NCBI RefSeq assembly: GCF_018986915.1 | Contig: NZ_CP076723.1 | Span: 310,001 to 374,000 of the forward strand | Reading direction: 5' to 3' | DNA length: 64,000 nt | Origin: Geomonas oryzisoli | GTDB taxonomy: Bacteria > Desulfobacterota > Desulfuromonadia > Geobacterales > Geobacteraceae | Shown here: positions 4,974-19,722 of the stretch, in pieces | How the letters are laid out: every line of letters begins with the position of its first letter | Numbering within the stretch: the first letter of the stretch is position 1 | Position numbers and translations under genes: made by a program | Notes under the pieces: model-generated | The model's input: the letters and a program-made list of their open reading frames with translations, nothing else | The model's database searches: none | What the model was told of the DNA's origin: nothing

Positions 4974-5396
4974 ATGGCCGAGTCAGGGAAGGTGCATTTA
5001 AGGCTGCAAGCTATGATCGCTATTGCCTTGGGTGGCATGCTCCTCTTCGAGATGGGAGAGGCCAACATCTACCATCAGACCAGCGCCAATCACATCCTTA
5101 CCATGGCCGAATGCTTGGCCTGCCACTCCGAAGACTCCATCCGGCCCGTTTCAGTCTGTCTCCACGATCACTGCCTCTATACCAACGAGCACCCGGTACA
5201 GCGCAGGTACCCGCCTTCCGCCACAACAAGGGAGTTTGCCCCCGTCGCGGACATCCTGGCGGCGGGCTGCGTTCTGGAGGACGGGAAAATCACCTGCCTG
5301 TCCTGTCACAACCTGACCCGGCCGGCGCCGCACCTGATCAGGGATGGCGACGAGCTGTGCTATATCTGCCACAGGTACCTGAGATCCGGCTCCTGA
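4974..5396 (+). CDS. Small triheme c-type cytochrome
   Basis: Exported electron-transfer protein of 140 residues with three CxxCH heme-attachment motifs: CLACH (47-51), CLSCH (108-112) and CYICH (129-133), plus several His residues available as distal ligands. A hydrophobic stretch (AMIAIALGGMLLF, about 13-25) serves as signal peptide or anchor. A CLHDH sequence at 62-66 lacks the correct spacing pattern and is not counted as a heme site. The start ATG follows AGGTGA closely; an internal ATG at residue 14 is an alternative. It lies 86 bp upstream of the AsmA/YdbH-like gene on the same strand, so cotranscription is possible. It does not look like the PpcA family. Confidence 0.85.
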   Translation: MAESGKVHLRLQAMIAIALGGMLLFEMGEANIYHQTSANHILTMAECLACHSEDSIRPVSVCLHDHCLYTNEHPVQRRYPPSATTREFAPVADILAAGCVLEDGKITCLSCHNLTRPAPHLIRDGDELCYICHRYLRSGS

Positions 5397-5482: not shown

Positions 5483-8400
5483 ATGCTCCGTCGCCTCCTT
5501 GCCTACATCAGTACCCTTCGTGTCAGACGCGTCATCTTCGTCGGCTGCACTCTGGCGTTCTCCGCCCTCCTTCTGCTGGTGCTGTTGGTGGCGTTCCTGC
5601 CCGCGCTCCTCTCCACCGACCCGGCGCAGTCCCTGCTGCGGCTGGGGATCTCCAAGGCCCTGAAAAAACCGGTTTCCTGGTCCGACCTTGACGTCTCCTG
5701 GTCCGACGGCATCGCACTCACCGGGTTGGTCCTGGGGGACGGGCCGCCGCCGCTTCTGCACGCTTCCCTGCAACACCTGAAACTCGAGCCGGGCCTGTCC
5801 CGCGACAAGGCGACCGGGCGCTGGTGCGTGAGCGTCGACCTCAAGGTCAGGAAGCTGGAAGCCGAGATCGTCCCCGGCCCTCCCAAGCCCCCCGAGGCAA
5901 AGCCGGTGCAGGATCCCCTCACCCGCATCGCTGAAGGGGTGCAGAAGTTCCAGTCCATGGAATGGCCGCTGCCGCTCGACCTGCGCCTTTCGATGGACGC
6001 AGCGCCCATGAAGATCCATTACGCCGACCCCGTCTCCAAGCGCGACGTGCTCCTGAGCGATTTCACCTTCGGGCTCGCCGTTCCTTCCCTGAGTCGGCTC
6101 CCGATCCGTACCTCCGTTTCCGGGAAGATCGCGCTGGACGAGGGGACACCGCACCCCGTGAGCGTGAGCGCCGAGGTTGCCGACCTGGTCACCGCGGCCT
6201 ATCGCATCAAACCGGCGGCAGCGTCCCTGGCAGCCCGGGCGGCTCTTCCGGGACTTGTGTTCAGTGCCGGCGGCGGGGTGACCCGCCCCGAGGGACTCAA
6301 GGCAAATCTGGCCCTTTCCCTCCCCGAGTTGGTCCGCCTCGCGGCACCCTTTGCGAAGAAGCCCCTCCCTGACCTTGGCGGGAAGCTGGCGCTCGATCTG
6401 AAAGCGCAGACCGACCGGGCCGGGGACCTGCGGCTGGCGCTTGCCCTGGACGGCGACCGGCTGGCGGTGAGCCGCATCCCCGGCAAAAAGGGAGGGCTCG
6501 CGCCCCTGGACCTGCACCTGCGCCAGAAGCTGGTCAGCAACCACCAGCGCCGGCAGGTCTCTTTCGACGAGGGGAGCCTGGTGAGTCCCGGGCTGGTCGC
6601 TGCTTCATGGCATGCCCTGGTTGATCGCCCCACCGATAAGTCGCGCAGCGTCAAGGCGGAGCTGGGGCCGCTGCGCCTGGAACTGGGGCGCGCCCGGCAG
6701 GTGGCGGCGCCATTTCTGCCGAAAAACCTTCCGGTCCGGGAGCTTGAGGGGACTGTGTCGCTGGCGCGGTTGCAGGCGCAGCTCCAGGGGCCGGGGAACG
6801 ACGGAACGGTGCAGATCCAGAACCTCGGGGTGGAGCTGCCGCGACTGCAACTTGCGCTGGCAGGCGGGCCATTGCAGGGAGAGGGAATGGTCCTCTCGCT
6901 GGACCGTGGGGTGATCCCCCTGAAAAAGATGAAGCCGGTGCGGGTCGCCGCCGACCTCTCCTGGGCCGGGCGCCGTGTGGACCTGGCCGGCAAGAAACCG
7001 GTGCGGATCGACGGCATGAAGGGGGGGGTGAGCCTCATCCTCACCGAAATCGATCTGAAGGGGAAACGGGCCCTGGTCGACGCTCGACAGAAGCTGGAGT
7101 TGGAGCGGGTCGGCGTGGGGAGCGAGCTGGCCCTGGAGCAGTTGCGGGAGGAACTGGAGCTGAAGGCACGCGCCTTTTCCGGCGGAGCCCTCGACCTGGC
7201 TCTCCCGGCGCTGCAGCTTTCCGCCCGTTCCGTGCAGGCGCACCAGCAGGGTAAAGACGTGACGCTGCAACCGTTCAACGCGCGCCTCACCGCGGAGGGG
7301 GTGCATCTCCCCCCCAAGGGACAGGGGAGCCCCACCGTGCAGCGCGCCACCTGCTCGCTCGCGGCGTCGGATGCGCTGGCGCTCGATGCCGAAGCGGCGC
7401 TTACCGGGCAGGGACGGCAGCTCGCCGCCAGCAAGGGGAGTCTGCGCGTCGACCTGCGCCGACTCATGCCGGTGGCGCGTTCGTTCCTTCCTGCCGGGTT
7501 CGATGCCGCGGGCCTCGCCGCCACCTCCTGGGACGTCGCGGCACCGCTGCCGGTAGCCCAGCTCCCCAAGGAGGAGAACCCGCTGCGCAAGGCGAAGGGA
7601 AGTCTCGCGTTGCTGGAGCGCGCCGACCTGTCGCTCACCCTGAACGATCTGGACCTGCGTGTCCCGGCGGCCCAGGGCACCTACCGGGTGCAGGGGCTCA
7701 CCACGGCGCCGCAACTGCGTCTGGCACTGCCGCATCCCGGCAAACCGCTTGCCGTGGACGGCGGTTTCCGCTTCGCGTCGCTCTCCGGTCTCTCCGGCAC
7801 GGCGGGGACGCTGCCCCTGCAGTCCGGGACGATCACCCTGCTGGGTGAACTGGCGGGGTGGAAGGAGCTCCGCCTCACCGAAGAATTGAAGGTCGCATCG
7901 CTGGGGCTGTCCCAGGTCGCGGACCTCACCGTTGGCCGCATCGATGCCCTCCTCGAGGACCGGGGGGGGAAGCTCGACGCGGCTACGCTCTTGCGGCGCC
8001 TGGACGCCACCATGTTCGCCCACCTGGAAGGGAACTTCCCGGCCGAGGCGAAGAAGGTGCTGGCGGGGTGGCAGCTGGCGGGGAACGTCTCAGCGGGCGC
8101 GCGCGTCGACCTCACCGCCGCACGGGAGCTCAGGGTGCGGGGCTACAGCAAGTGCCGCGACTTCGGAGTGGCCGACGGCAAGGGGGTCGCGGCGAGCGGC
8201 ATCCGGGCGGATCTCGTGCTGGATCGCAGCTACGCGCTGGCGCAATCGCAGGGGAAAGGGGAGGATTGGGTGCCGCTCTCGGCGGGGCTGGTGCGGCCGG
8301 CGCCGGTGGCACCGCTGGGTGCGCCCAATTCGGACCTGTCGGCGCGCATCTACGAGGACCTGCGGGGGCTCATGGGCGGGCCGCGCAAGATCGGCGTCCG

Positions 8401-9100
8401 CAAGGCCTCCTTCACGTCCGGTGCCGTCCCCATAGACGCCAGCGCCCTGGAGGCGGATCTCCTGCTCGAGCCCGAGGTCCTGGGGGTGAGCTTCTTACAG
8501 GCCGAGGTGGGTGGGGGGACGGTGCGGGCGCGTGGCATGATCGATCTCTCCCGGGAGGTTCCGGTGCTGTCCACCTACTGCTATTTTTCGAAGCTGGACC
8601 CGGTGCTTCTCTTTCCTGCGGCGGGGGGGCAGCGTCCCGGAGGGGAAGGGGAATTGACCGGCGAACTGAGCCTTTCCGCGCCGCTGGCGACCGAACAGCG
8701 GGCGCTGCTGGAGGGAATGCGTCTGAATCTCAACCTGCGCCGTTTCAGCTCGCGCATCCTGGACCGTGCCCTCTTCGCGCTGGACCCGTACCAGCGCAAC
8801 GAGAAAATCGTGGCGCAGCGTAAATCGCTGCAAAGTGCCGACCTGAAGGGGCTGCGGGTAAATGCCGTCGACGGCGCCCTCGACTGCGAGGGAGAGCTGA
8901 CGGTGAAGGGGATCGATGTCGCCATCCCGAGGATCGAGCGTCTGCGTCTCTCCGAGCTTCCCATCCAGAACGAGCTGAAGCGGCTGCTGGTCTCCATCGC
9001 CTCGTCCAGGACGCTCCTGGACCTGGTCCGTTCCGACACGCTGGTGATCGACGAAAAAGGTAAGCCGTCCCTGAAAAGGAGGAGCAATGCCCACAACTAG
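5483..9100 (+). CDS. AsmA/YdbH-like giant envelope protein
   Basis: Protein of 1205 residues with one N-terminal membrane segment (about residues 20-43, IFVGCTLAFSALLLLVLLVAFL) and a very long, repetitive, beta-rich periplasmic region, the architecture of AsmA-superfamily bridging proteins (YdbH, TamB, YhdP). The end carries an AsmA-like motif (LRLSELPIQNELKRLL). I favour the YdbH branch mainly because the next gene looks like its partners YnbE and YdbL. In E. coli, YdbH with YnbE works in phospholipid transport between the membranes. The 3' end overlaps the next gene by 14 bp. It is longer than E. coli YdbH (about 880 residues). Function is inferred from family and neighbours. Confidence 0.75.
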   Translation: MLRRLLAYISTLRVRRVIFVGCTLAFSALLLLVLLVAFLPALLSTDPAQSLLRLGISKALKKPVSWSDLDVSWSDGIALTGLVLGDGPPPLLHASLQHLKLEPGLSRDKATGRWCVSVDLKVRKLEAEIVPGPPKPPEAKPVQDPLTRIAEGVQKFQSMEWPLPLDLRLSMDAAPMKIHYADPVSKRDVLLSDFTFGLAVPSLSRLPIRTSVSGKIALDEGTPHPVSVSAEVADLVTAAYRIKPAAASLAARAALPGLVFSAGGGVTRPEGLKANLALSLPELVRLAAPFAKKPLPDLGGKLALDLKAQTDRAGDLRLALALDGDRLAVSRIPGKKGGLAPLDLHLRQKLVSNHQRRQVSFDEGSLVSPGLVAASWHALVDRPTDKSRSVKAELGPLRLELGRARQVAAPFLPKNLPVRELEGTVSLARLQAQLQGPGNDGTVQIQNLGVELPRLQLALAGGPLQGEGMVLSLDRGVIPLKKMKPVRVAADLSWAGRRVDLAGKKPVRIDGMKGGVSLILTEIDLKGKRALVDARQKLELERVGVGSELALEQLREELELKARAFSGGALDLALPALQLSARSVQAHQQGKDVTLQPFNARLTAEGVHLPPKGQGSPTVQRATCSLAASDALALDAEAALTGQGRQLAASKGSLRVDLRRLMPVARSFLPAGFDAAGLAATSWDVAAPLPVAQLPKEENPLRKAKGSLALLERADLSLTLNDLDLRVPAAQGTYRVQGLTTAPQLRLALPHPGKPLAVDGGFRFASLSGLSGTAGTLPLQSGTITLLGELAGWKELRLTEELKVASLGLSQVADLTVGRIDALLEDRGGKLDAATLLRRLDATMFAHLEGNFPAEAKKVLAGWQLAGNVSAGARVDLTAARELRVRGYSKCRDFGVADGKGVAASGIRADLVLDRSYALAQSQGKGEDWVPLSAGLVRPAPVAPLGAPNSDLSARIYEDLRGLMGGPRKIGVRKASFTSGAVPIDASALEADLLLEPEVLGVSFLQAEVGGGTVRARGMIDLSREVPVLSTYCYFSKLDPVLLFPAAGGQRPGGEGELTGELSLSAPLATEQRALLEGMRLNLNLRRFSSRILDRALFALDPYQRNEKIVAQRKSLQSADLKGLRVNAVDGALDCEGELTVKGIDVAIPRIERLRLSELPIQNELKRLLVSIASSRTLLDLVRSDTLVIDEKGKPSLKRRSNAHN

Positions 9101-9869
9101 AACCTGTTCTACGTTCTATGTTCTACGTTCTACGTTAAACCTTACGACCTTAAAACTTAGGACCCGTTCAATGTTCAACGTTCAACGTTCGACGTCTTTA
9201 TCGATTGAAGCCAAGGGGCGTGCTGCGTTCACTGTTGTACGTTGCGCACTGAACCCGTTGTCAATTGTCCATTGTCAATTGTCAATTCCCGCTGCCGCCC
9301 TCGCCCTGCTGCTGGCATTGACTTCCGGCTGCACGCTCGCCAAGGTCGACGTCAATGTGGTGAGCGAACGGACTTCGCTGGAAAACCAGGTGCTGGGAAC
9401 CTACAACGCGCTGTCCGAGGACGTGCTCCTGGTGGCGTCGGTGCGCGGGGTATCGCCGACGGGTAAGGTGGAAACGCCGCCCAAACACTCGCCGGAACAG
9501 CAGGAGGCCGCACAGGCACTGGAAAACATCGCCTTCCACGCCGATGACGTCGAGACCCTGAAACGGCTCGGGTGGGTGGGGGAAAACCTGGAGGGAACCC
9601 TGACCAGCTTCAACCGCGAGGTCCCGGAAAAGGCCCCGGCCGACCTGAAGGCTTTTGCGGGCCGCTTCGGAGAAGGGGAATTCCGCCAGGTGGTGAGCGA
9701 GGTGAACCGCTCCCGCGAAATCCTGATGCTCAGGGTGGTGCAGACCAACGAGAACTTCACCGCCAAGGACCTCCCCGCCATCCGCAAGGTCTTCGCCAGG
9801 GTGAACCGCCAGAACAGCGCCCCCGGCACCAAGGTGCAGGAGGATGACGGGAAATGGGTAACCCGATGA
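9087..9869 (+). CDS. DUF1318 (YdbL-like) lipoprotein with YnbE-like N-terminus
   Basis: Predicted lipoprotein of 260 codons. The C-terminal half matches the YdbL/DUF1318 pattern: GWVGENLEG, a VNRSREI core and a terminal PGTK...DDGKWVTR. The segment directly after the lipidation cysteine (CTLAKVDVNVVSERTS) resembles YnbE, so one gene may combine what E. coli encodes as ynbE and ydbL. The start at 9087 is chosen because AAAAGGAGGAGCA lies immediately upstream. Codons 6 to about 68 run through 7-bp tandem repeats (TTCTACG, TTCAACG, TTGTCAA types), so the leader before IPAAALALLLALTSGC is abnormally long. Cysteine is near residue 82. The stop overlaps the CHAT gene. Confidence 0.75.
   Translation: MPTTRTCSTFYVLRSTLNLTTLKLRTRSMFNVQRSTSLSIEAKGRAAFTVVRCALNPLSIVHCQLSIPAAALALLLALTSGCTLAKVDVNVVSERTSLENQVLGTYNALSEDVLLVASVRGVSPTGKVETPPKHSPEQQEAAQALENIAFHADDVETLKRLGWVGENLEGTLTSFNREVPEKAPADLKAFAGRFGEGEFRQVVSEVNRSREILMLRVVQTNENFTAKDLPAIRKVFARVNRQNSAPGTKVQEDDGKWVTR
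9105..9292. repeat. 7-bp tandem repeat tract inside coding sequence
   Basis: Runs of heptamers: TTCTACG/TTCTATG units from about 9107, TTCAATG/TTCAACG/TTCGACG units at 9166-9194, and TTGTCAA/TTGTCCA units at about 9259-9286. The same TTCAACG family occurs at 56688, 56784 and 57236. The tract lies within the N-terminal codons of the DUF1318 lipoprotein gene without stop codons. Confidence 0.8.
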
Positions 9870-12800
9870 ACGCCGCCGCGAAGATAACCCTGCTGCTGGC
9901 CCTCGCCGCACTCCTCCCCACGGGCGCCGGTGCGGTGCCGCTCGGGGAGGAACTGCTGGCTCCGGCCGCGCCGCGCCCGGCCCCGCGCTCGCGCCCCGAG
10001 GTCGCCCCGACGCCGGCGGTCTACACCCCGCAGTCCGTGCTCTACGCGACGCGCTCCCGGGACGGCAGGTGGATCGCGACCGTGGAAAAGGGGGATGCGG
10101 GCTACGAGCTCTGGCTGCATCCCGCCGGAAACGTCGCTGAACTGCCGCGCCTTTTGTCCAAAAGCCCGGTGCGCATCTCCGCTCCCGCCTTCAACGCGGC
10201 GGGTACCAAGCTCGCCTATGCCGACGAGCGCGACGACCTGAAGGGGGATATCTGGCTCATCGACCTGGCCGGCCCGGGCGCCGAGCCGCGCCGGCTGACC
10301 GGCAACGATGCCGGCGAAGACGCCCCGAACTTCGCCCCCGACGGCAGCGCCCTCTATTACCAGCGCCAGCTCCCCGGTGCCGACCGGCGCGACCTGGTAC
10401 GCCTGGAGCTTGCCACCGGCAAGGGGGACGCCCTCCCCATCGGGATCGACGCGGCCTTCGCGTCCGTCTCCCCCGACGGCAACCGGATCGCCTTCGTCTC
10501 CCGCGACAAGGATCCCGGCGGCGACCTCTGGCTCTGGGAAAACGGGGGACGCCTGACCCAGCTCACCACCGGCGCGGAGCGCGACCTCTACCCGGTCTGG
10601 CAGGATGGCGAGACCCTCCTCTTCACCCGCTTCGCTCCCCCGGCCGGGGATGCGGCCAACGGTCCCGAGGGGGGAGCCGTGTTCCGGCTGCAGCTCAAGC
10701 GCCAGGGAAGCCACGGCTTCCCCGCCGCCTTCCCGCTTACCTCCGGCCTTCTTTCCACCGCGGCCCCTGTCCCGGCCGGCGACCGGGTGCTCTTCGTCGC
10801 GGGTGCCGCGGCGGGTGGGCAGGTCCTGTCGCTCCCGGCTTCGGGGGAAGTCCCGGACCAGGCAGATCCCGCCGCCCAATGGCAGGTGGCCCGGGTGATC
10901 CTGGAGCGCCAGCCTGCTGACCCGGCCACGGCACGGCTCGCCTGCCTGCGCGTGCTGGCGCGGGAGGAGGCCCCGACACGGGAAGGTGCACTCGCCTCGC
11001 TGGCCCTCGCCGGGCTCATGGAACAGGCCGGCGAGCGCAGCCAGGCCCAGGAACGCTACGCCGAGGCCGCCGTTCGTTATGCCGCCTTCCCGGAATCCTC
11101 GCTGGCCGCCATCGCCCGGGTGCGACTGGAGGCGGAGAGCCGTTGCGAAGAGGTGGTCGTCGCCGGACGCCGCACAACGGTGATCGCCGAGGCGCAGGAA
11201 GAGATGCTGCGGGCGGCAAAGGGGAAGGGGAGCGACGCGACCGCGCGCGCTCTCGTCGACGGCGCCAGACTCCAGGCCGAGTACGGCTCGGGCGCGGAGG
11301 ATCAACTGGCCGCCATCGCCCGGTTCGAGAAGGCGCTCGCCGAAACCGCCGCCGCTCAGGACATCCTGGCCGAGGCGGCGTACCGCCGCGCGCGGCTTCT
11401 CTCCCGCATCGAGGGGGGGGAGGGATCGGTCGCGGCCCTGGTCGAGGTGGCCAGGAAATACGACCGGCAGGAACAGTGGGCCGAGGCGGCCATAGCCGAG
11501 ATCCTGGACCAGTTGACCGCGAAGAACGCCGACGCGCGGGAGCGCCTGGCCGCCCTGGCCGAGCAGTACCGCTCCACCCTGCCGCGTCTGGCCATGGGGG
11601 CCTGGAACCGGGTCGGCGACCTCGCCTACCGCGGGGGGGACTGGGTACGCGCCAAGGACGCCTACCGCACCGTGCTGGAGCAGTTCCCTCCCGTCGCCAC
11701 CCCGACCGCCGCGGCCCGCTTCGCGCTGGCCGAGATCCTCTACCGCGAGGAGCGCTACGGCGAGGCGACGGCGCTCTATGAAAAGGAGATGGGTGAGCAC
11801 CCCGAGGACGCGCCCCTGTACCAGTTGGCCCGGGCCGCCTACCTGAGAAAGAGCCTCGCCGCCGGCGAGAGCCTGTACCGTCTGGGCGAGGTCTCCGCCG
11901 CCCGCGCCGCGTTCCTGGACCTGATCCGCTACGAGGGGAAGAGCCTCGAGGCGCACCGCGGCTATATCAAGTCGGTAGCCGCCCAGGGGCAGGCCCCGGA
12001 GCTCCTGGCGCTGTACAAAAAGATGCTGCAATCCTACCCGGACGATCCGGTACTCCTCTACGGGGCCGGGCTCTGCTACACCTACCTCCCGGGGAAGGGA
12101 TCCCTCCAGGAGGGGGATCGCCTGATCGCGCGCGCCGCCGAGCGTCTGCCCGGCTCCGAGTACCCCTTCCAGACCCGCGGCTACATCGCGGAAGTATTGG
12201 AAACGGTGCACGGCGAGCAGGGTGGGCTGGAGCGGGCACTGAACCTGTACCGTCGCGCCAAACTCCTGAACCGTCCCCAGGAAAACCCGGAGAACAGCGC
12301 CAACCTCTCGCTCAACATCGGCAACATCGCCTATCTGCTGGGGCGCAACGCCACGGCATGGAACTTCTACAGCCAGCGCCTCGCCGCCAAGGCCCCCTTC
12401 GACAACGTCGACACCGAACTCCTCTTCGAGCAGCGCTACGGCGCGGTCGCCTTCCAGGTGGGGGAGAAACAGGCCGCCATCGACGGCTACGGCCGGGCCC
12501 TCAAGCTGGCTGAGTCGCGCCTGGAACCGGCGCGTGCCCTGGAGCAGTTCGGCCGCCTGACCCGCCGGGTCAACGAGCGGCTCTTCGCGGGGCAGAAGCT
12601 TTCGCCGCAGCAGGAGAAGTGGCTTGCCGGGCAGCAGTCGATCAACGCGGAGCTGGAACTGCTCGGCGCGGACCGGGTGGAGGCGCCTCCGGCCGCGGGT
12701 TGGCAGAAGTTCGAGACCGCCCTCAGGGGGCTTTTGGCGCGGCAGCGCAAGCTTGCCGCCGAGGCCTGCACCGGAGTGCCTCAGGGCGAGAAGTACCTCC

Positions 12801-15800
12801 TGGAGCTGAACGCGATGGCCGCGGCAGTGGAGCGCGAGCTGGACAACGTGCCGCGCCTGGTGGAGACCGGCGCGCAACTGCACGACCGGCTCGGCCTCGC
12901 CAATTTCGACGCAGAACGCTTCCAGCCGGCCCTGGCCCATTTCGACCAGGCCTACCGGCTGAACCGGGCGCTCGGGCGTCACGCCAATCTGGCCGCCAAC
13001 CGCCGCTCCGCGAGCATCGCCGCCTACCGGCAGGCCGAGACCGCCTCCGGGGCGGAACGGCAGAGGCTCCTGTTGCTGTCCCGGGACGGGTTCACCGAGG
13101 TGCTGGCGCTTCTGGACCAGTATCCCCCCGAGAAGAAGAGCACACCCAAGCGCGGAGGCGGGCTGATCAACGTGGCCGCCAACGTCGCCCTCAACAAGGG
13201 GGGCGCCACCGAGGCCGCCTATGGTTTCTCGGCGGAGCAGGAAAGGCGTCTGGCCCAGAGCTACCTCGCGCGCATCGCCGCCGACCTCGGCGACAACGCC
13301 ACGGCGGAGAAGCTGTTCCGGGAGCTGCTCGGGCGTTACCCGGAGCGGGTGGACAAGCTGGCCGAGGGGGACCTCTTCGGGGTGGGGCTCTTGAGCCACC
13401 GCGCCGCCCAGCTCGCCTACGCCCGCGGTGACCGTGCCGCCGCGGCCGCAGGGTTCAGGAACGCAACCGCCATCGCGCTCAAAAACGGCAACGCCGTGGG
13501 CTCCATGCTGAACCTGGTCAACTGGGGCATGCTGCTCCCCGGGGATGCCGCGCCGGGAGAGGTGGCGGAGTTTCTGGCGTCGCAGGGGGGCTGCTCGGCC
13601 CTGGCCGACTCCTATCGCGACGCCCTTCCCCCGGATGCCGTGGCCCGCTACGGCAACGACGTCGGCGCCATCCTGGCGCGGCTCGCCTCCGGGCGTCCCG
13701 ACGACGGCAGCCGGCAGGCGCTGGTGTTCAAGGCGATTGCCGCCTGGGACCGGGTGCTCGCCTCGACTCCCCCTCCCTTGACGGGAGGGGGCAGGGGGGT
13801 GGGTGACCTCGCCATGGGCAAGGACTCGCCACGTGGCACCTTACCCCACCCCCAACCCCCTCCCGCAAGGGGAGGGGGAGAAGTGCACGCGCGCCTGGCG
13901 GCGCGCCTGAACCGCGCGGCGGCGCTCGCTTCGTTGGGACTGTCCGACGCGGCCCGGGCGGGTTACACCACGGCACTTGCCGAGGCGCGTGCCGCCGACA
14001 GCGGCGCCATGGCCTGGCGCGCACAGGCGGCGCTGGGAGACTACGATGCCGCCTTGAAAGTTCTGGACCGGCTCCCCCCCACGGAATACGACCTGCGCCT
14101 CGGGGAACTCGCCGAGCGCTTTGCGCCGCGCATCGAGGCGCTCGCCGCCAAGGATCCGGAGCAGGGCTTCGCACTGGTGGAGCGCCTCTCCGAGTTGGAG
14201 CGGGTGCAGATCCTGGGCAGGAGCCTCCTCGGCGTCGACGACCACGCCACCCTTGAGCTCCTGGCTAAGGCCGCCCCGCATTTGTCCGAACTGGACCGCG
14301 TCACCGCCGCGCTCGGGAAGGCCGCACCGGAGGACGCCGCCTATCTGAAGCTGCGCGCGCAGCAGGAACAGACGGTCCTGGACGGCATGCTCGGCAAGAA
14401 GCTGGAACTCCTTCCCCCCTTGTACGCCGTTGCCGGTCCCGGCGCGCTCCGCTTGGCCGCCTCGGCGGCGGCACTCCCGGGTACGCCTGCCGAGCGAGAC
14501 CGCTTCGCCGCGCTTCTTCCCCCCTTCCGCAAGGGGTGCTCTTCCGGCAAAGGTGCGAAGCTCTGCCAGGCGCTGACGCCGCAGCCGGCCGAGGCGATCG
14601 ATGTCATGGAGCGGCTTGCCGGACGCCCCGTGCTGCGCCTGGTGGCCCTTCCCGGTGACCGCTTCCTCGTGTTCGCTTTCGACGGCAAGGACGGCATCAA
14701 GGCGGAAACGCTGCCGCGCGAGGCGGTCGCGGCTAAGCTGAACGACCCCGCCCGCGTCGTCATCTACGAAAGGCCCGAACAGTTCGCCTCCGCCAACGTC
14801 CTCAGTTGGGGGGTGAGCGCGAGCCAGCTCCTTAAAAGCGTGGCGCAGCGCCGCCCGCTGCGGACCCAGGTGCTGGACCCGGCGGGGTTGTGGCCCTCTT
14901 TGGCGCCGTTTGTGAAGCTCCCCGCCGACGCGCTGCCGGGCCGTCTCCCCGATGCCCACACCCTGGCGCTTCCTGCCGCAGCGGGGCTTCTCCCTGCGGT
15001 GCCGAATCGCCCTGGTGACGGGGGAACGCTGAGCGCCGCGTGGGAGGATGCCGGTGGCGTCCGTCGCGACCTCGTGCAGCTTGCCGATGGCGACTCGGTG
15101 TCGCTCATCCTGGCTGCCAAGGGGGGGACGGGACAGGCCTGGTACCTCGGGCAGCTGGCCACCCTGGTCGGGGTGCCGAGCCTTCTCCTGTCCGATCGCC
15201 CCGCCGACCTTGCCCCCTTCGTGAAGAGCTACGCCGACCGGTCCCTCGCCCAGGCGCGGCGGGAGCTTCCGGGGGGGTGGCTGTTGATCGGCGACTGGGG
15301 GGGCGACGCGCGGGAGAGCGCCACGCTGGCCAAGAAGCTCTTCAACGACTACGTGAAAAATGCGGTGCAGGCACACAACGACGGGCGCTACGCCCAGGCG
15401 CTGGCCCTCTTCGACAACGCGCTGGTGGTCGCCGAGGCGACGCCGGAACTCGCCAAGAACCGCGCCGCACTGCATCGCCACGCCCGCGAGAGCGCCTTCG
15501 GCGCCGGCTTCACCGAGCGCGCCGTGAGCCATGCCGACAGCCTGGTGCAGCGGCTGGCCAAGGAGAAACCGTACTCCGCCGAACACGCCGACGCGCTGCT
15601 GCGGCTGGGGCTGTTGCAGGGGCGCCTGGAGCACTTCAAGGAGGCGACCGCCGCGCTCAAGGAAGGGGTTTCCATCTTCGCCGACCTGGGGCTCGCCAAG
15701 GACCAGGCCGCCGCCCTCTCCGACTTCGGCGTGGTCATGGAGAACGCGGTCGATTACTCCGCGGCGCGCTCGCTCTTCGAGGAGTCGGCGGGGCTGCGCG

Positions 15801-18172
15801 CCCAGTTGAAGGACGAGCTGAACTTGGCCGACCAGTACCGCAACCTCGGGCGCATCTTCGACCTGCGCCTGAACCAGTTCGCCGTCGCGGAAAACTACTA
15901 TCGCAAGGCCCAGGAAATCTACGCCAAGAACGGCAATCCTGCCCTGGAGGCCGAGACGATCCTGGAGCGCGGCCGCTGCCAGCGCCTTATGGGGAACTTC
16001 CCCGCCGCCGATGCCCTTTATCGCGAGGCGCTGGCCAAGGTGGGCGTCACCGAACTGAAGACCCGCATGAGGATCGTGCTGGAGCAGGGGAACAACGCCT
16101 GGTTCCAGGGGCGCTACCAGGAGGCCTTCGACCTGCGCGAGCAGGTGGAAAAGGCGGCGCTCAAGGAGAACTGGGCGCTGGAGCAGGTGATGGCCAAGAA
16201 CACCGGCGGCCTGATCTGGTGGACGCTGGGCGACAACAGGCGGGCGCTCGTCGAGCTGAAGCAGGCGCTGGAGCTGGCCGGCAAGCTCGAGGTGCGCCGC
16301 GACGAGAGCGCCACCACGCTGAACAACATCGGCCTGGTGCGCCGCGAGTCGGGCGACTACCAGGGGGCGCTGGAGAGTCTCGGGCAGGCGCTCGCCATCG
16401 ACCGGGCCCTCGGCTCGCGCTGGGCCATCGCCTACGATCTCAGGAACCTCGGCCAGACCCGACTCAAGATGGGGGACCCCGCCGGCGCGCTGAAACTGCT
16501 CGACGAGGCGGCGGGACTTGCCGACGCCATCGGCGACAAGGTGAACCAGGCCAAGATCCACCTGGCGCTGGGGGATGCCCGGGCTCGCAGCAACATGGGC
16601 GGACCGGCGGCGCAAAGCTACCGGAAAGCGCTGGAACTGGCCGACGCGATGCTGCTCAGGGAGGTGCGCTGGCGCGCCCTGCTCGGTCTCGCGCGGCTCA
16701 AGGAACAAGGTGGTGACCGCGACGGCGCCGTTGCCTCCTACCGGCAGGCGCTGGACACGGTCGAGGGGCTGCGCGCCGAGATCAAGCTGGACCAGCTGAA
16801 GGACGGCTTCCTGGCGGACAAGATGGACGTCTACCAGGGGCTGGTGGGGCTCCTCGTCGACCTCGGGCGTCACGACGAGGCCTTCGCCGTGGCCGAGCGC
16901 TCCCGCGCCAGGAACCTGATCGACATCCTGGGGCGGCAGCGCCTCTCCCTCGCCGGGGGCGGCGATCAGGACCTCTACGACCGTCAGAACCGGCTGCGCG
17001 AACAGATCCAGGAACAGGAGCAGCTGGCGCAGCAGGCGGGGACCCCCGCCGAACGCGCCATGTACGCGGCTGCCCTGGACAAGCTGCGCGCCGACTACCA
17101 GGACCTCCTGCTCGACATCGAAAGGCGTCGGCCCGAGCTCCTGGCGCTGGTCAAGGTGGCGCCGGTCACCGTGGCCGAGGTGGAGTCCCTGCTGGAGCCG
17201 GGGGTAAGTCTGTTGTCCTACTACCAGCTCCCGGACCGGCTCCTGTGCTGGCGCCTGGAGCGGCAGGGCTCGCGGCTCTTCGTCCTCAAGGCCTCCGCGC
17301 GCGAGGTCGCCGAAAAGATCGCCACCTACCGGCGCATGCTGCAGAACCTGGAGCCCCTGGAGCAGAACTCCCGGGAACTGTACCGGCTCCTCCTTGCGGA
17401 ACCCCTGGCCGGGGTCCCCGAGGGGCAGACCGTCGGCATCGTGCCCCACGGCAGCCTGCACTACCTCTCCTTCGCCACGCTCTACGACGGCCGCGACTAC
17501 CTGGTGGACCGGCACACCCTGTTCCACCTCCCGGCCGCCTCGGTGTACCGCCACACCCTGGCGCGGCGCCAGGCCGAGAAGAACCTGCGCATCCTCGCCA
17601 TCGGCAACCCGGACCTGGGCAACGCCGCACTCGATCTCCCCTTCGCCGAGAAGGAGGCCGGGACGCTGCGCTGGAACTACAGCGACGTGACCACCCTGAC
17701 CCGGGAGCGCGCCACCGAGAGCTGGGTGCGTGAGAACATCGCCAAGTTCGGTATCATTCATCTCGCCTCGCACGGGGAGTTCGACACGGTGAACCCGCTC
17801 TTCTCCTCGATCCGGCTGGCAAAGGACAGCAAGAACGACGGCCGTCTTCAGGCGGAAGAGGTGTTCGGGCTGGACATCAAGGCGGACCTCGTGGTGCTTT
17901 CTGCCTGCCAGACCGGCCTGGGCGACGTGAAGAGCGGCGACGACGTGATCGGCATGAACCGCGCCTTCCTCTTCGCCGGGACCCACGCCCTGGTTTCCAG
18001 CCTGTGGCGCGTTTCCGACGTCTCCAGCGCGATACTGATGAAGCAGTTCTACCGGGACTACAGCCGCAGCGACAAGGCGCAGGCGCTCAGACTGGCCATG
18101 CTGCACGTGAGAAACCGTTACCCGCACCCGGGCTATTGGGGGGCGTTCGTACTGACCGGAGATTACAAGTAA
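9854..18172 (+). CDS. Giant exported TolB-propeller/TPR/CHAT-domain protein
   Basis: A 2772-residue protein, 8.3 kb of uninterrupted frame. Order: signal peptide (ITLLLALAALLPTGAGA, cleaved near residue 30); TolB/WD40-like beta-propeller (about 50-330; repeats such as SPDGNRIAFVS); many TPR motifs (about 370-1350 and 1830-2330); C-terminal CHAT domain (about 2480-2772). CHAT is a caspase/separase-like cysteine protease fold; the expected dyad is present as H2640 in HLASHGEF and C2685 in LSACQTG. Residues about 1306-1343 are encoded by an intergenic-type repeat. Start 9854 has AGGAGG about 10 nt upstream; ATG 9866 is an alternative. Cotranscribed with its neighbours. The target is unknown; I infer a periplasmic or surface scaffold with proteolytic activity. 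Confidence 0.88.
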   Translation: MGNPMNAAAKITLLLALAALLPTGAGAVPLGEELLAPAAPRPAPRSRPEVAPTPAVYTPQSVLYATRSRDGRWIATVEKGDAGYELWLHPAGNVAELPRLLSKSPVRISAPAFNAAGTKLAYADERDDLKGDIWLIDLAGPGAEPRRLTGNDAGEDAPNFAPDGSALYYQRQLPGADRRDLVRLELATGKGDALPIGIDAAFASVSPDGNRIAFVSRDKDPGGDLWLWENGGRLTQLTTGAERDLYPVWQDGETLLFTRFAPPAGDAANGPEGGAVFRLQLKRQGSHGFPAAFPLTSGLLSTAAPVPAGDRVLFVAGAAAGGQVLSLPASGEVPDQADPAAQWQVARVILERQPADPATARLACLRVLAREEAPTREGALASLALAGLMEQAGERSQAQERYAEAAVRYAAFPESSLAAIARVRLEAESRCEEVVVAGRRTTVIAEAQEEMLRAAKGKGSDATARALVDGARLQAEYGSGAEDQLAAIARFEKALAETAAAQDILAEAAYRRARLLSRIEGGEGSVAALVEVARKYDRQEQWAEAAIAEILDQLTAKNADARERLAALAEQYRSTLPRLAMGAWNRVGDLAYRGGDWVRAKDAYRTVLEQFPPVATPTAAARFALAEILYREERYGEATALYEKEMGEHPEDAPLYQLARAAYLRKSLAAGESLYRLGEVSAARAAFLDLIRYEGKSLEAHRGYIKSVAAQGQAPELLALYKKMLQSYPDDPVLLYGAGLCYTYLPGKGSLQEGDRLIARAAERLPGSEYPFQTRGYIAEVLETVHGEQGGLERALNLYRRAKLLNRPQENPENSANLSLNIGNIAYLLGRNATAWNFYSQRLAAKAPFDNVDTELLFEQRYGAVAFQVGEKQAAIDGYGRALKLAESRLEPARALEQFGRLTRRVNERLFAGQKLSPQQEKWLAGQQSINAELELLGADRVEAPPAAGWQKFETALRGLLARQRKLAAEACTGVPQGEKYLLELNAMAAAVERELDNVPRLVETGAQLHDRLGLANFDAERFQPALAHFDQAYRLNRALGRHANLAANRRSASIAAYRQAETASGAERQRLLLLSRDGFTEVLALLDQYPPEKKSTPKRGGGLINVAANVALNKGGATEAAYGFSAEQERRLAQSYLARIAADLGDNATAEKLFRELLGRYPERVDKLAEGDLFGVGLLSHRAAQLAYARGDRAAAAAGFRNATAIALKNGNAVGSMLNLVNWGMLLPGDAAPGEVAEFLASQGGCSALADSYRDALPPDAVARYGNDVGAILARLASGRPDDGSRQALVFKAIAAWDRVLASTPPPLTGGGRGVGDLAMGKDSPRGTLPHPQPPPARGGGEVHARLAARLNRAAALASLGLSDAARAGYTTALAEARAADSGAMAWRAQAALGDYDAALKVLDRLPPTEYDLRLGELAERFAPRIEALAAKDPEQGFALVERLSELERVQILGRSLLGVDDHATLELLAKAAPHLSELDRVTAALGKAAPEDAAYLKLRAQQEQTVLDGMLGKKLELLPPLYAVAGPGALRLAASAAALPGTPAERDRFAALLPPFRKGCSSGKGAKLCQALTPQPAEAIDVMERLAGRPVLRLVALPGDRFLVFAFDGKDGIKAETLPREAVAAKLNDPARVVIYERPEQFASANVLSWGVSASQLLKSVAQRRPLRTQVLDPAGLWPSLAPFVKLPADALPGRLPDAHTLALPAAAGLLPAVPNRPGDGGTLSAAWEDAGGVRRDLVQLADGDSVSLILAAKGGTGQAWYLGQLATLVGVPSLLLSDRPADLAPFVKSYADRSLAQARRELPGGWLLIGDWGGDARESATLAKKLFNDYVKNAVQAHNDGRYAQALALFDNALVVAEATPELAKNRAALHRHARESAFGAGFTERAVSHADSLVQRLAKEKPYSAEHADALLRLGLLQGRLEHFKEATAALKEGVSIFADLGLAKDQAAALSDFGVVMENAVDYSAARSLFEESAGLRAQLKDELNLADQYRNLGRIFDLRLNQFAVAENYYRKAQEIYAKNGNPALEAETILERGRCQRLMGNFPAADALYREALAKVGVTELKTRMRIVLEQGNNAWFQGRYQEAFDLREQVEKAALKENWALEQVMAKNTGGLIWWTLGDNRRALVELKQALELAGKLEVRRDESATTLNNIGLVRRESGDYQGALESLGQALAIDRALGSRWAIAYDLRNLGQTRLKMGDPAGALKLLDEAAGLADAIGDKVNQAKIHLALGDARARSNMGGPAAQSYRKALELADAMLLREVRWRALLGLARLKEQGGDRDGAVASYRQALDTVEGLRAEIKLDQLKDGFLADKMDVYQGLVGLLVDLGRHDEAFAVAERSRARNLIDILGRQRLSLAGGGDQDLYDRQNRLREQIQEQEQLAQQAGTPAERAMYAAALDKLRADYQDLLLDIERRRPELLALVKVAPVTVAEVESLLEPGVSLLSYYQLPDRLLCWRLERQGSRLFVLKASAREVAEKIATYRRMLQNLEPLEQNSRELYRLLLAEPLAGVPEGQTVGIVPHGSLHYLSFATLYDGRDYLVDRHTLFHLPAASVYRHTLARRQAEKNLRILAIGNPDLGNAALDLPFAEKEAGTLRWNYSDVTTLTRERATESWVRENIAKFGIIHLASHGEFDTVNPLFSSIRLAKDSKNDGRLQAEEVFGLDIKADLVVLSACQTGLGDVKSGDDVIGMNRAFLFAGTHALVSSLWRVSDVSSAILMKQFYRDYSRSDKAQALRLAMLHVRNRYPHPGYWGAFVLTGDYK
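13767..13881. repeat. GC-rich paired-hairpin repeat, copy B, in frame inside the CHAT gene
   Basis: Nearly the same organisation as the intergenic copies at 4607 and 63846: CTCCCCCTCCCTTGACGGGA, G-run GGGGGGTGGGTGA, variable centre, TGGCACC, CCCCACCCCC and right hairpin. It adds about 38 codons (STPPPLTGGGRGVG ... PPPARGGGE) between two helices of the TPR region while keeping the frame open. Confidence 0.85.
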
Positions 18173-18222
18173 AGAACACAACCCGGCCGGATCCGCTCCG
18201 GCCGATTCACGGAGGTGAAACC

Positions 18223-18732
18223 ATGAAGAAGCGAGTTTTAGGCGGCGCGCTGTTGCTGCTGACCCTGTGCGCAGGGCAGACGCTCGGCGCCGAGAAACGC
18301 TGGGTGGTGAGCGAGGGGACCACCCTCAAGAAAGAGCAGTCGGTAAGTGCGCCGAACCTGGCCGACCTGCCGGTGGGCGCTGAGCTGACCCTCGTAGAGG
18401 GTGAGGGGCGCTGGCTCAAGGTGCAGACCGCCGACGGCAAGGAGGGGTGGGTCTACGCGGGACGGGTTTCCGACACCCAGCCGGTCGCGGAGGTCGCGGG
18501 CGGCGACGGCCTGCTGGGCGACAGCATGCAGAAGAGCCAGATCAACACCGCCAAGGCGGACAGCGCCCGCAGCGTGCGCGGCCTCTCCCCGGAGACCGCC
18601 GCGTACGCCAAGCAGCATGGCACGCCGGAGGCCCTGAAGAAGGAGCTGGACAAGGTCCTGGCGCGCAAGGTGTCCAACAACGAGGTCAATGCCTTCCTCA
18701 AGGAAGGTAAAATCGGCGAGTATGCCCAGTAA
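18223..18732 (+). CDS. Exported SH3-like (SH3b) domain protein
   Basis: Protein of 169 residues with a clear signal peptide (MKKRVLGGALLLLTLCAGQTLGA). Residues about 25-85 form an SH3b-like domain: a start resembling TLKKEQSVSAPNLADLPVGAEL and an end WLKVQTADGKEGWVYAGRV, the usual bacterial SH3_3 pattern. The remainder is a helical tail (about 115-169) without a recognised domain. Start 18223 has GGAGGTGAAACC just before it. It lies 50 bp after the CHAT gene and 10 bp before the M48 gene, so it probably belongs to the same operon. SH3b domains usually bind cell-wall peptides or protein partners; a linker role in this envelope system is inference. Confidence 0.8.
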   Translation: MKKRVLGGALLLLTLCAGQTLGAEKRWVVSEGTTLKKEQSVSAPNLADLPVGAELTLVEGEGRWLKVQTADGKEGWVYAGRVSDTQPVAEVAGGDGLLGDSMQKSQINTAKADSARSVRGLSPETAAYAKQHGTPEALKKELDKVLARKVSNNEVNAFLKEGKIGEYAQ

Positions 18733-18742
18733 GGAGGGAGCC

Positions 18743-19633
18743 ATGAACAAACTACGTCTTTTACCGCTGGTGGCGCTCTCCTGCCTGGTTGCGGCCCAGG
18801 CCCACGCCGGGTGGCAGGATACGCTCAACAACCTGATGAAGTCAGATTCCAAGGAAGGGAAGATCCTCTCCGGGGCCACCCAGGTACTCTCCTCGTCGCA
18901 GGAGATGACCTACCAGACCGAGTGCACCGTAGGCGAGAGCCTCGCCCTGGACAGCATGCAGCGCTTCGGCAAGCCGGTGCAGAACGAGGCGCTGCAGAAG
19001 TACGTGAACCTGGTCGGGAACGCGGTGGCCAGAAACAGCCGGCGCTCCACCATCCCGTACCGCTTCGTGGTGCTCGACAGCCCGGTACAGAACGCCTTCG
19101 CCGCCCCCGGCGGCATCGTCTTCATCAGTCGCGGGCTCCTCGATGTCCTGGACAACGAGGCGGAGCTCGCCGGGGTGCTGGCGCACGAGGTGGGGCACGT
19201 GGCCGAGAAGCACGCGCTGAAAAGCATCCGCCGCGCCCAGTTCCTGCAGGGTGCCAGCGCCATCACCGCCGCCACCATGAAGGGGAGCAAGGGGCAGCAG
19301 TTCGAATCGATGGTCGGCGACCTGCAGAACACCCTGTTCGACAAGGGGCTGGACCAGGGGATGGAGTACGAGGCGGACCAGGCGGCGCTGGAGACCACCT
19401 ACCGCACCGGCTACGACCCCGGCGCCCTGGTGAGCGTGCTGCAAAAGCTCAAGAAGCAGGAGGCAACCGCGGCGAAGAACGGTTCCTGGTTCTCGACCCA
19501 TCCGCCGCTGGACGAGCGTATCGCCAGGCTCTCGGCCCAGCTCGCCAAGTACCCCTCGGCAGGCTCGGTGAAGCTGCCGGCGCGGTTCGCGAAGTACGTG
19601 AAACCGGCCAAGGGTGGCAAAGCATCCAAGTGA
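18743..19633 (+). CDS. M48-family periplasmic zinc metalloprotease
   Basis: Protein of 296 residues with a signal peptide (LLPLVALSCLVAAQAHA) and a peptidase M48 domain. The zinc site HEVGH is at H148-H152 and the third ligand lies in MEYEAD (about 207-212); family motifs NAFAAPGGIVFISRGLL and STHPPLDERIARL are present. This is the architecture of LoiP/YcaL/BepA-type envelope quality-control proteases, without the TPR tail of BepA. Start has AAGGAGGGAGCC upstream. It is the last gene of the envelope operon, followed by a terminator. It supplies a second, unrelated protease activity beside the CHAT protein. Confidence 0.9.
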   Translation: MNKLRLLPLVALSCLVAAQAHAGWQDTLNNLMKSDSKEGKILSGATQVLSSSQEMTYQTECTVGESLALDSMQRFGKPVQNEALQKYVNLVGNAVARNSRRSTIPYRFVVLDSPVQNAFAAPGGIVFISRGLLDVLDNEAELAGVLAHEVGHVAEKHALKSIRRAQFLQGASAITAATMKGSKGQQFESMVGDLQNTLFDKGLDQGMEYEADQAALETTYRTGYDPGALVSVLQKLKKQEATAAKNGSWFSTHPPLDERIARLSAQLAKYPSAGSVKLPARFAKYVKPAKGGKASK

Positions 19634-19677: not shown

Positions 19678-19689
19678 ATCGCTGTGGCA

Positions 19690-19722
19690 AGGGCAGGCTC
19701 AAAAAGCCTGCCCTTTCTTTTT
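19690..19722 (+). terminator. Rho-independent terminator of the envelope operon
   Basis: Perfect stem GGGCAGGCT / AGCCTGCCC with a CAAAA loop, followed by TTTCTTTTT. Confidence 0.9.

Follow-up and report, generated by a model that had tools for sequence, protein, structure and literature searches.

A conserved five-gene envelope cassette of Geomonas oryzisoli that combines an AsmA-superfamily protein and a DUF1318 lipoprotein with a giant CHAT protein and an SH3b-M48 module

This report concerns five genes, here called A to E, that lie on the same strand at positions 5483-19633 of a 64,000-nucleotide stretch of the Geomonas oryzisoli genome (contig NZ_CP076723.1, positions 310,001 to 374,000), which we refer to as the window. 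A preliminary description, made from the sequence, had proposed that the five genes form an envelope operon with a 14-bp A-B overlap, a 16-bp B-C overlap, gaps of 50 and 10 bp, and a downstream terminator. Open reading frame (ORF) calling and a hairpin scan confirmed the five co-directional genes, the 16-bp overlap (9854-9869), both gaps and the terminator hairpin; the A-B overlap is treated further below. The proposal that every product carries a signal peptide, lipobox or membrane anchor was borne out by eye, as a membrane helix was seen in A, a lipobox in B and a signal peptide in each of the other three. Among the window proteins, Pfam assigned DUF1318 to B; PD40, TPR and CHAT to C; SH3_3 to D; and Peptidase_M48 to E. 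The genes are as follows.

5483..9100, plus strand: gene A, 1205 aa, an AsmA-superfamily, bridge-like protein with a predicted N-terminal membrane helix followed by long beta strands
9258..9869, plus strand: gene B, a DUF1318 lipoprotein; the ORF opens at 9087, the likely start is TTG at 9258, and the lipobox Cys codon is at 9330
9854..18172, plus strand: gene C, 2772 aa, an exported PD40 propeller-TPR-CHAT protein (signal peptide by eye)
18223..18732, plus strand: gene D, an exported SH3b protein with a family-specific C-terminus (from Pfam and alignment)
18743..19633, plus strand: gene E, an exported M48 metalloprotease, with HEVGH at 19184-19198

A near-complete A was found in 18 of 58 related genomes (its own included), split over two frames in one of them, and a 19th genome contained a fragment of 29% only. 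The long CHAT protein C, a DUF1318 copy beside A and a close M48 protein were present in the same 18 genomes, in which the identity of E was 63-100%, the next best match being 38%. Comparison of 17 loci with the window showed the A-B-C order in every one, with D and E coming next in 15; of the remaining two, the locus of genome G042 stops at a contig edge, and in G056 the D-E pair is on another contig (L193). Because the flanking genes (a cytochrome gene upstream, and genes for an NMT1-like lipoprotein and a histidine kinase downstream) were matched only in same-genus loci, we placed the limits of the cassette at A and E. The cassette was absent from four same-genus genomes of high completeness. 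DUF1318 proteins are more widespread than the cassette, with matches in 45 of the 58 genomes as compared with 18, and three of the 45 (G042, G051 and G056) have no DUF1318 match besides the cassette B.

A search with an alignment of B, covering 84,980 species at one genome per species, returned 103 stretches, 65 of which were confirmed as loci; the search was seeded with two short peptides (CTLAKVDV and ERTSLENQ) and misses divergent members. The loci are from Geobacteraceae/Desulfuromonadales, Desulfovibrio and its relatives, Desulfobacteraceae, a Desulfobulbaceae bin and one spirochaete, and thus mostly from Desulfobacterota, with Geobacterales and relatives contributing the majority and Geomonas being closest. 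When the neighbours were annotated with hidden Markov models in the 64 analysable loci (B being cut off in one), A was upstream in 61 of the 62 that had room for it, and C was downstream in 61 of 64. Among the 61 loci with C, D and E were separate genes in 34 (some with E cut by the locus end), were fused in 8, and in 3 D was seen with E beyond the edge; 11 were unresolvable owing to edges or an interrupted C, and 5 lacked D-E despite 1.3-1.7 kb of room. Many loci are metagenome bins and shared descent inflates these counts; for profile comparisons near copies were thinned to 58 of 74 A, 51 of 81 B and 47 of 67 C sequences, and the frameshifted B of locus L098 was left out after the first B alignment. 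The B-C junction (n = 61) was a 16-bp overlap in 39 loci, a 19-bp overlap in 3 and a 4-bp overlap in 11. Since gene order and spacing recur across loci, the operon arrangement is not due to chance. The neighbourhood comparison, which the preliminary description had named as a test, thus found the order conserved well outside this genome, in scattered sulfur- and metal-reducing bacteria, and upheld its grouping of the giant CHAT protein, the SH3b protein and the M48 protease as one unit.

To examine co-occurrence, 395 genomes were sampled evenly from the phylum. Twelve of them contained B and 14 contained C, and C was present in all 12 genomes with B; in the two genomes with C and without B, C begins near a contig start (base 125; G287) or lies on a 3-kb contig (G147). 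The hypergeometric probability of this overlap is 3.6e-21, uncorrected for shared ancestry. A strong D (at least 143 bits) was found in 12 of the 395 genomes, all of which have C, and the best score in the remaining genomes was 61 bits; 42 further genomes, including G114, reached E ≤ 1e-10 for D with what seem to be general SH3b matches. In all five genomes whose locus lacks an adjoining D-E pair, the pair or what remains of it lies elsewhere (G056, at L127, and G447 to G450, with a partial D in G447). Three loci lack C next to B. In two of them, from Desulfonema magnum (G444) and a bin of Desulfobacteraceae (G445), C lies elsewhere in the genome and a D-E pair lies apart from C, and in G445 A is likewise away from B; the third is the spirochaete locus. 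In G114 the contigs carrying B and C differ, and the D-E pair, with a weak D, is apart from C. Because most partners that have become separated are still present in the same genome, functional dependence is favored over mere synteny: B and C behave as inseparable, and D-E is a second module tied to them. An alternative is that unrelated envelope genes simply share an operon through vertical inheritance, as happens in operons of this kind, and the predominance of Geobacterales and relatives among the loci would suit it. We consider this very improbable, as the same set recurs in several distant groups, C accompanies every B, unlinked partners are retained and D is fused to E in some loci; the co-occurrence results already contradict it.

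The patchy distribution of B and C in the sample would also suit an accessory trait of metal and sulfate reducers. One could envision an export or surface-assembly device in which A and B deliver lipid-linked or lipoprotein cargo that C, D and E process, and all of the products do look exported. The 2-4 kb or so compared on each side of the loci contained no cargo gene conserved with the set, however, and the flanks recur only in the genus group, so that we regard such a device as unlikely.

The preliminary description had taken A to be a YdbH-like bridge protein. Window A gave no Pfam match at E ≤ 1, including to the YdbH profile PF11739, on which E. coli YdbH itself scored 970 bits. Sixteen A proteins were chosen as a diverse set (the alignment of A from the relatives covered 14 of 18 proteins, after removal of three near copies and of the A that is split in L108). 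At E ≤ 0.01, DUF748 matched 7 of the 16 (best 1.3e-13), AsmA 7 (8e-10) and YhdP 7 (2e-10), and PF11739 matched none. With hhalign, in which E-values against one template are not calibrated for database search, the A profile matched the DUF748/AsmA family of another DUF1318 locus of the genome (13 sequences) with a probability of 98.7 and an E-value of 2.9e-16 over 1010 columns. Against the single E. coli YdbH sequence the probability was 0.7, and that of the canonical DUF748/AsmA family against YdbH was 0.2. By its family members and the profile-profile match, A is thus a member of the wider AsmA/DUF748 superfamily; the bridge-like part of the earlier assignment is supported, and the YdbH part is not. 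The AlphaFold model of A, of moderate confidence (predicted local distance difference test, pLDDT, 73.5; predicted template modelling score, pTM, 0.50), has a helix at residues 2-37 followed mostly by long strands. No AsmA-type chain was among the matches listed for it (the best 50 each from Foldseek and VIA), from which we do not conclude absence, and sequence searches of A and B against solved structures gave nothing useful. In Geobacter sp. OR-1 (L108/L134), A is divided over two reading frames.

B, which had been described as of YnbE/YdbL type, scored 29.3 bits on PF07027 (DUF1318/YdbL), above the curated cut-off of 27. Its profile matched E. coli YdbL with a probability of 91.7 (E-value 7.7e-7) and the canonical DUF1318 lipoprotein family with 95.8. 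The YnbE half of the description found no support, as B had no Pfam match to PF13617 at E ≤ 1 and a probability of 0.1 with hhalign against a single YnbE, a short query of low power. A by-eye reading of the strand-like N-terminal stretch of B as a YnbE counterpart failed the same hhalign test. B also carries an N-terminal motif.

9363..9389, plus strand: B motif SERTSLENQ, from two B alignments (16 and 51 sequences) and a comparison with 17 canonical proteins

Directly after the lipid cysteine of B is CTLAKVDVNVVSERTSLENQ. In the 51 B sequences, all selected for RT[S/A]LENQ, the mean frequency of the commonest residue was 0.88 for residues 1-12 and 0.94 for residues 12-24, as compared with 0.54-0.83 in the other blocks. 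Two divergent B proteins recovered with the whole profile still carry DTRTALENQVLG and GERTALERQVLG. The 17 canonical DUF1318 lipoproteins lack SERTSLENQ and have instead a sequence resembling C-A-[VIF]-I/-T-V-N-V-Y-F-P-E-K. Two unusual B homologues were noted. In a spirochaete bin (L175), B has SERTSLENQ, differs in the lipobox region and adjoins other genes for exported proteins. The divergent B of G114 (L194) is downstream of a gene that by eye is FadL/OmpP1-like, with C and the weak D-E pair on other contigs.

The other DUF1318 locus of the G. oryzisoli genome, at about 4,182,560-4,186,850 (within L109, 4172600-4192500), encodes a second pair of an AsmA/DUF748 protein and a DUF1318 lipoprotein. 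This canonical pair resembles A-B in its two-gene layout, an AsmA-like neighbour being present in 13 of 17 loci compared, and in the profile matches given above (98.7 on the A side and 95.8 on the B side). Unlike the cassette, it lacks the SERTSLENQ segment and has no adjoining C-D-E. The bridge formed by YdbH of E. coli was reportedly the subject of a paper by Kumar in 2024. According to PMC12977461 and PMC11784454 (see also PMC8593681), E. coli YdbH pairs with the lipoprotein YnbE and is a proposed phospholipid transporter. The YdbH-YnbE-YdbL arrangement is like A-B in that an AsmA-superfamily gene directly precedes genes for a lipoprotein and a DUF1318 protein, the latter matched by B as described. 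It differs in that A lacks PF11739, YnbE has no match, and the lipoprotein anchor and DUF1318 are combined in the single protein B; the E. coli ydbH stretch examined encodes nothing corresponding to C, D or E. In agreement with the preliminary description, which knew of no such system, searches of the open-licence literature listed no prior account of the five-gene set.

C scored 193.9 bits (5e-57) on the CHAT profile PF12770 and also matched TPR and PD40.

17771..17908, plus strand: C catalytic dyad region, with His2640 (17771-17773) and Cys2685 (17906-17908)

The His and Cys motifs, which we take to be catalytic as in other CHAT proteins, were found in all 54 C ORFs that reach this region; 66 distinct ORFs were examined, of which 9 were cut at contig or locus edges and 3 were interrupted. 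Across 47 sequences, conservation was highest in the CHAT domain and in parts of the TPR region. No solved structure matched the CHAT part at E ≤ 0.001 in a sequence search. On these grounds C is a CHAT-family protein with intact dyad motifs and a putative protease. A dispersed repeat runs in frame through C at window 13745-13924 (residues about 1298-1357); it recurs at about 21 further genomic sites, in several of which that frame contains stops, and the C alignment is about half gaps over residues ~1298-1357.

Among the closest known systems is Craspase, whose TPR-CHAT protein cuts a partner protein in type III-E CRISPR, as stated in PMC9729208, PMC10028731 and PMC11106740. Its Csx29 subunit resembles C in having TPR repeats ahead of a CHAT protease, and the NCBIfam model NF041237 (type III-E TPR-CHAT, Csx29) gave C 39.1 bits, far under its cut-off of 300. 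C differs in that it is exported, about four times the model length and equipped with a propeller. The partner cutting by TPR-CHAT proteins, along with weak matches of C in PADLOC (TPR 3e-9, BovA 2e-5), raises the idea of a stress or defence cell-death module, with C as a caspase-like executioner that would cut D upon envelope attack and E permeabilising the cell. This seems improbable to us, as the PADLOC matches are generic and weak, A, B, D and E had none at E ≤ 0.01, and export signals are present on C, D and E; the search for defence neighbours extended over the flanks read.

D matched SH3_3 with 35.5 bits in Pfam and carries two short motifs.

18559..18585, plus strand: D linker motif DSARSVRGL, a possible site of cleavage or docking by the CHAT protein
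18694..18723, plus strand: D C-terminal motif FLKEGKIGEY, of the FLxxGxIGE type

RSxR[G/S] was found in 48 of 50 distinct D sequences, the exceptions being one cut-off D and the fused D of L155, and the FLxxGxIGE-type motif in 49 of 50. E scored 122.9 bits (2e-35) on PF01435, and HExxH was found in 38 of 40 distinct separate E sequences, the other two ending ahead of the motif. Its signal is of the Sec type in Geomonas and, by pattern, twin-arginine-like in 3 of 40 separate E; by eye, twin-arginine-like signals were seen in E of L199 and in standalone E of G444, G447, G448 and G450. The standalone D-E pairs of G444, G448, G449 and G450 and E of G447 have HExxH intact, and G094 and G337 contain a D adjoining C plus a separate D (fused in G094). 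D and E form a module of their own, fused into one ORF of 379-444 aa in eight loci, three of which are cut by the locus end. The zinc motif of the eight fusions is HExxH in five and REAAH, RESAQ and HESAQ in the other three.

A model of a D-E fusion (pLDDT 83.9, pTM 0.74) showed the order SH3b, a low-confidence stretch, helices and the M48 domain, with residues 110-124 at pLDDT below 50 and the RSxR motif (111-119) inside this part. Both SH3b and M48 were clear in VIA, the M48 domain matching 3c37 (Z 21.5, root-mean-square deviation 2.5 over 210 residues) and BepA (Z 20.9, 2.9 over 207); a Ste24 overlay from residue 107 on was weak (Z 7.7) and was not used. Cleavage after Arg is known from CHAT relatives, among them separase and gingipain R. 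Because the motif is conserved, falls in a linker predicted to be disordered and would suit an Arg-cutting enzyme, we propose D as a substrate of C; the RSxR linker may be a cleavage site for C or a docking site.

The closest solved structure to E was 3c37, followed by E. coli BepA. Like BepA and LoiP, E has an M48 domain with HExxH and would be periplasmic. Unlike them, it is far under the equivalog cut-offs (94.3 of 570 bits on the NCBIfam BepA model NF052400), has no TPR match in Pfam, and is paired or fused with the SH3b protein D. The main rival interpretation, that the set serves outer-membrane protein assembly or quality control in the manner of BepA and TAM, builds on this likeness. 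A would be a TamB-like protein acting in protein traffic, E would be BepA-like with C as its TPR partner, D would be a wall anchor, and C would degrade stalled clients. BepA has an M48 and a TPR domain, which here would be divided between E and C, and members of the A family score with the DUF748, AsmA and YhdP models alike. TamB is itself an AsmA-superfamily protein, according to PMC12977461. We nevertheless find this possible but doubtful, as B has DUF1318, which in E. coli is encoded with YdbH and YnbE, no Omp85 gene was seen in the cassette, and E falls far short on the BepA model.

The interpretation that we prefer, and to which we assign a probability of roughly 45%, is that A to E constitute one periplasm-spanning system in which an AsmA-type bridge is coupled to a proteolytic control circuit centred on the CHAT protein. 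A would be anchored in the inner membrane and form a long AsmA-superfamily beta-groove, the far end of which would be received by B, an outer-membrane lipoprotein. The A-B pair, with lipid as its presumed cargo, would act as a second, specialised bridge beside the canonical AsmA/DUF1318 pair of the genome. C would be a periplasmic scaffold of propeller and TPR repeats, and it would sense the state of the bridge, most probably by way of the conserved segment at the N-terminus of B. Once triggered, C would cut D in the RSxR linker, between the SH3b domain, thought to bind the cell wall, and the C-terminal segment, thought to hold E. Cleavage of D would then free or switch on E, the presumed effector, to clear or process outer-membrane clients; in a variant of this step, C would bind D instead of cutting it. 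We favor this wiring because A, B, C and E co-occur in 18 of 58 genomes, the order recurs in the species-wide scan, every B is accompanied by C, unlinked partners are kept, the dyad motifs are intact, the D linker is conserved and E is close to 3c37 and BepA.

Several observations weigh against this interpretation. A has no YdbH profile match, and its role in lipid transport is putative; its structure matches are weak and generic, being to long beta-sheet proteins of various kinds, among those listed by Foldseek (ApoB100 6e-5, LptDE 7e-4, TM scores 0.13-0.19), and those listed by VIA are outer-membrane barrels. Because the motif that we call conserved in B also served as the search seed for the loci, its conservation is inflated. 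The conserved D linker motif may be a docking site, and the divergent D of L196, outside the 50, lacks RSxR and retains only RG, while the fused D of L155 also lacks it. As three of eight fusions have a broken zinc motif, the fused form does not always require catalysis by E. In the spirochaete genome, searches found B and a weak C (145 bits) and none of A, D and E. In a close relative, G006 (L098), an in-frame stop interrupts C, and B is disrupted close to its start. Unless they stem from errors of assembly, these defects mean that the set may be dispensable in that genome; the locus could be a decaying copy or reflect sequencing errors.

A more specific proposal is a protease-gated intermembrane bridge, in which the CHAT protein would cut the SH3b adaptor at RSxR and thereby unleash or re-tether the M48 protein, as a periplasmic counterpart of separase and Craspase; in Desulfovibrio-type lineages, the fused, partly dead M48 copy would be a decoy or brake. 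We hold this sharper version only tentatively, at about the level of the protein-care rival.

Further features of the locus are the following.

9105..9282, plus strand: 14-bp tandem repeats between A and the B signal peptide (9105-9132 and 9255-9282)
19689..19715, plus strand: Rho-independent terminator-like hairpin, 11 pairs with a T-rich tail

The 14-bp A-B overlap of the preliminary description is in doubt, and the true start of B is probably TTG at 9258, because the first part of the ORF that opens at 9087 runs through the repeats, B homologues in three other genera are 197-199 aa long and open directly at the signal peptide, and the TTG start gives B a normal lipoprotein signal peptide. 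The repeats seem to provide the start codon and first residues of B. The ORF of E as listed opens at 18689, and the start at 18743 suits its signal peptide and the 10-bp D-E gap. The stretch has 14 hairpin-type sites as compared with 10.9 expected, the site at 19689-19715 having the longest stem. A paired-CXXCH cytochrome-like gene (4974-5396) is 86 bp upstream of A and has a counterpart only in same-genus loci.

Taken as a whole, the earlier interpretation is partly supported. Beyond it, the present analysis found the second AsmA/DUF1318 pair, the wider spread of DUF1318, the SH3b-M48 module and the loss of the M48 zinc motif in three fusions. Little is settled about how AsmA-type bridges are regulated, and the roles described for caspase-like CHAT proteases are mainly cytoplasmic. 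An AsmA/DUF1318 pair that, in the 395-genome sample, never occurs without a giant exported CHAT protein offers a genetic handle on both, and the exact residues named here (His2640 and Cys2685 of C, the RSxR linker of D and SERTSLENQ of B) make the model testable. The set thus points to an undescribed system that may link membrane maintenance to regulated proteolysis.

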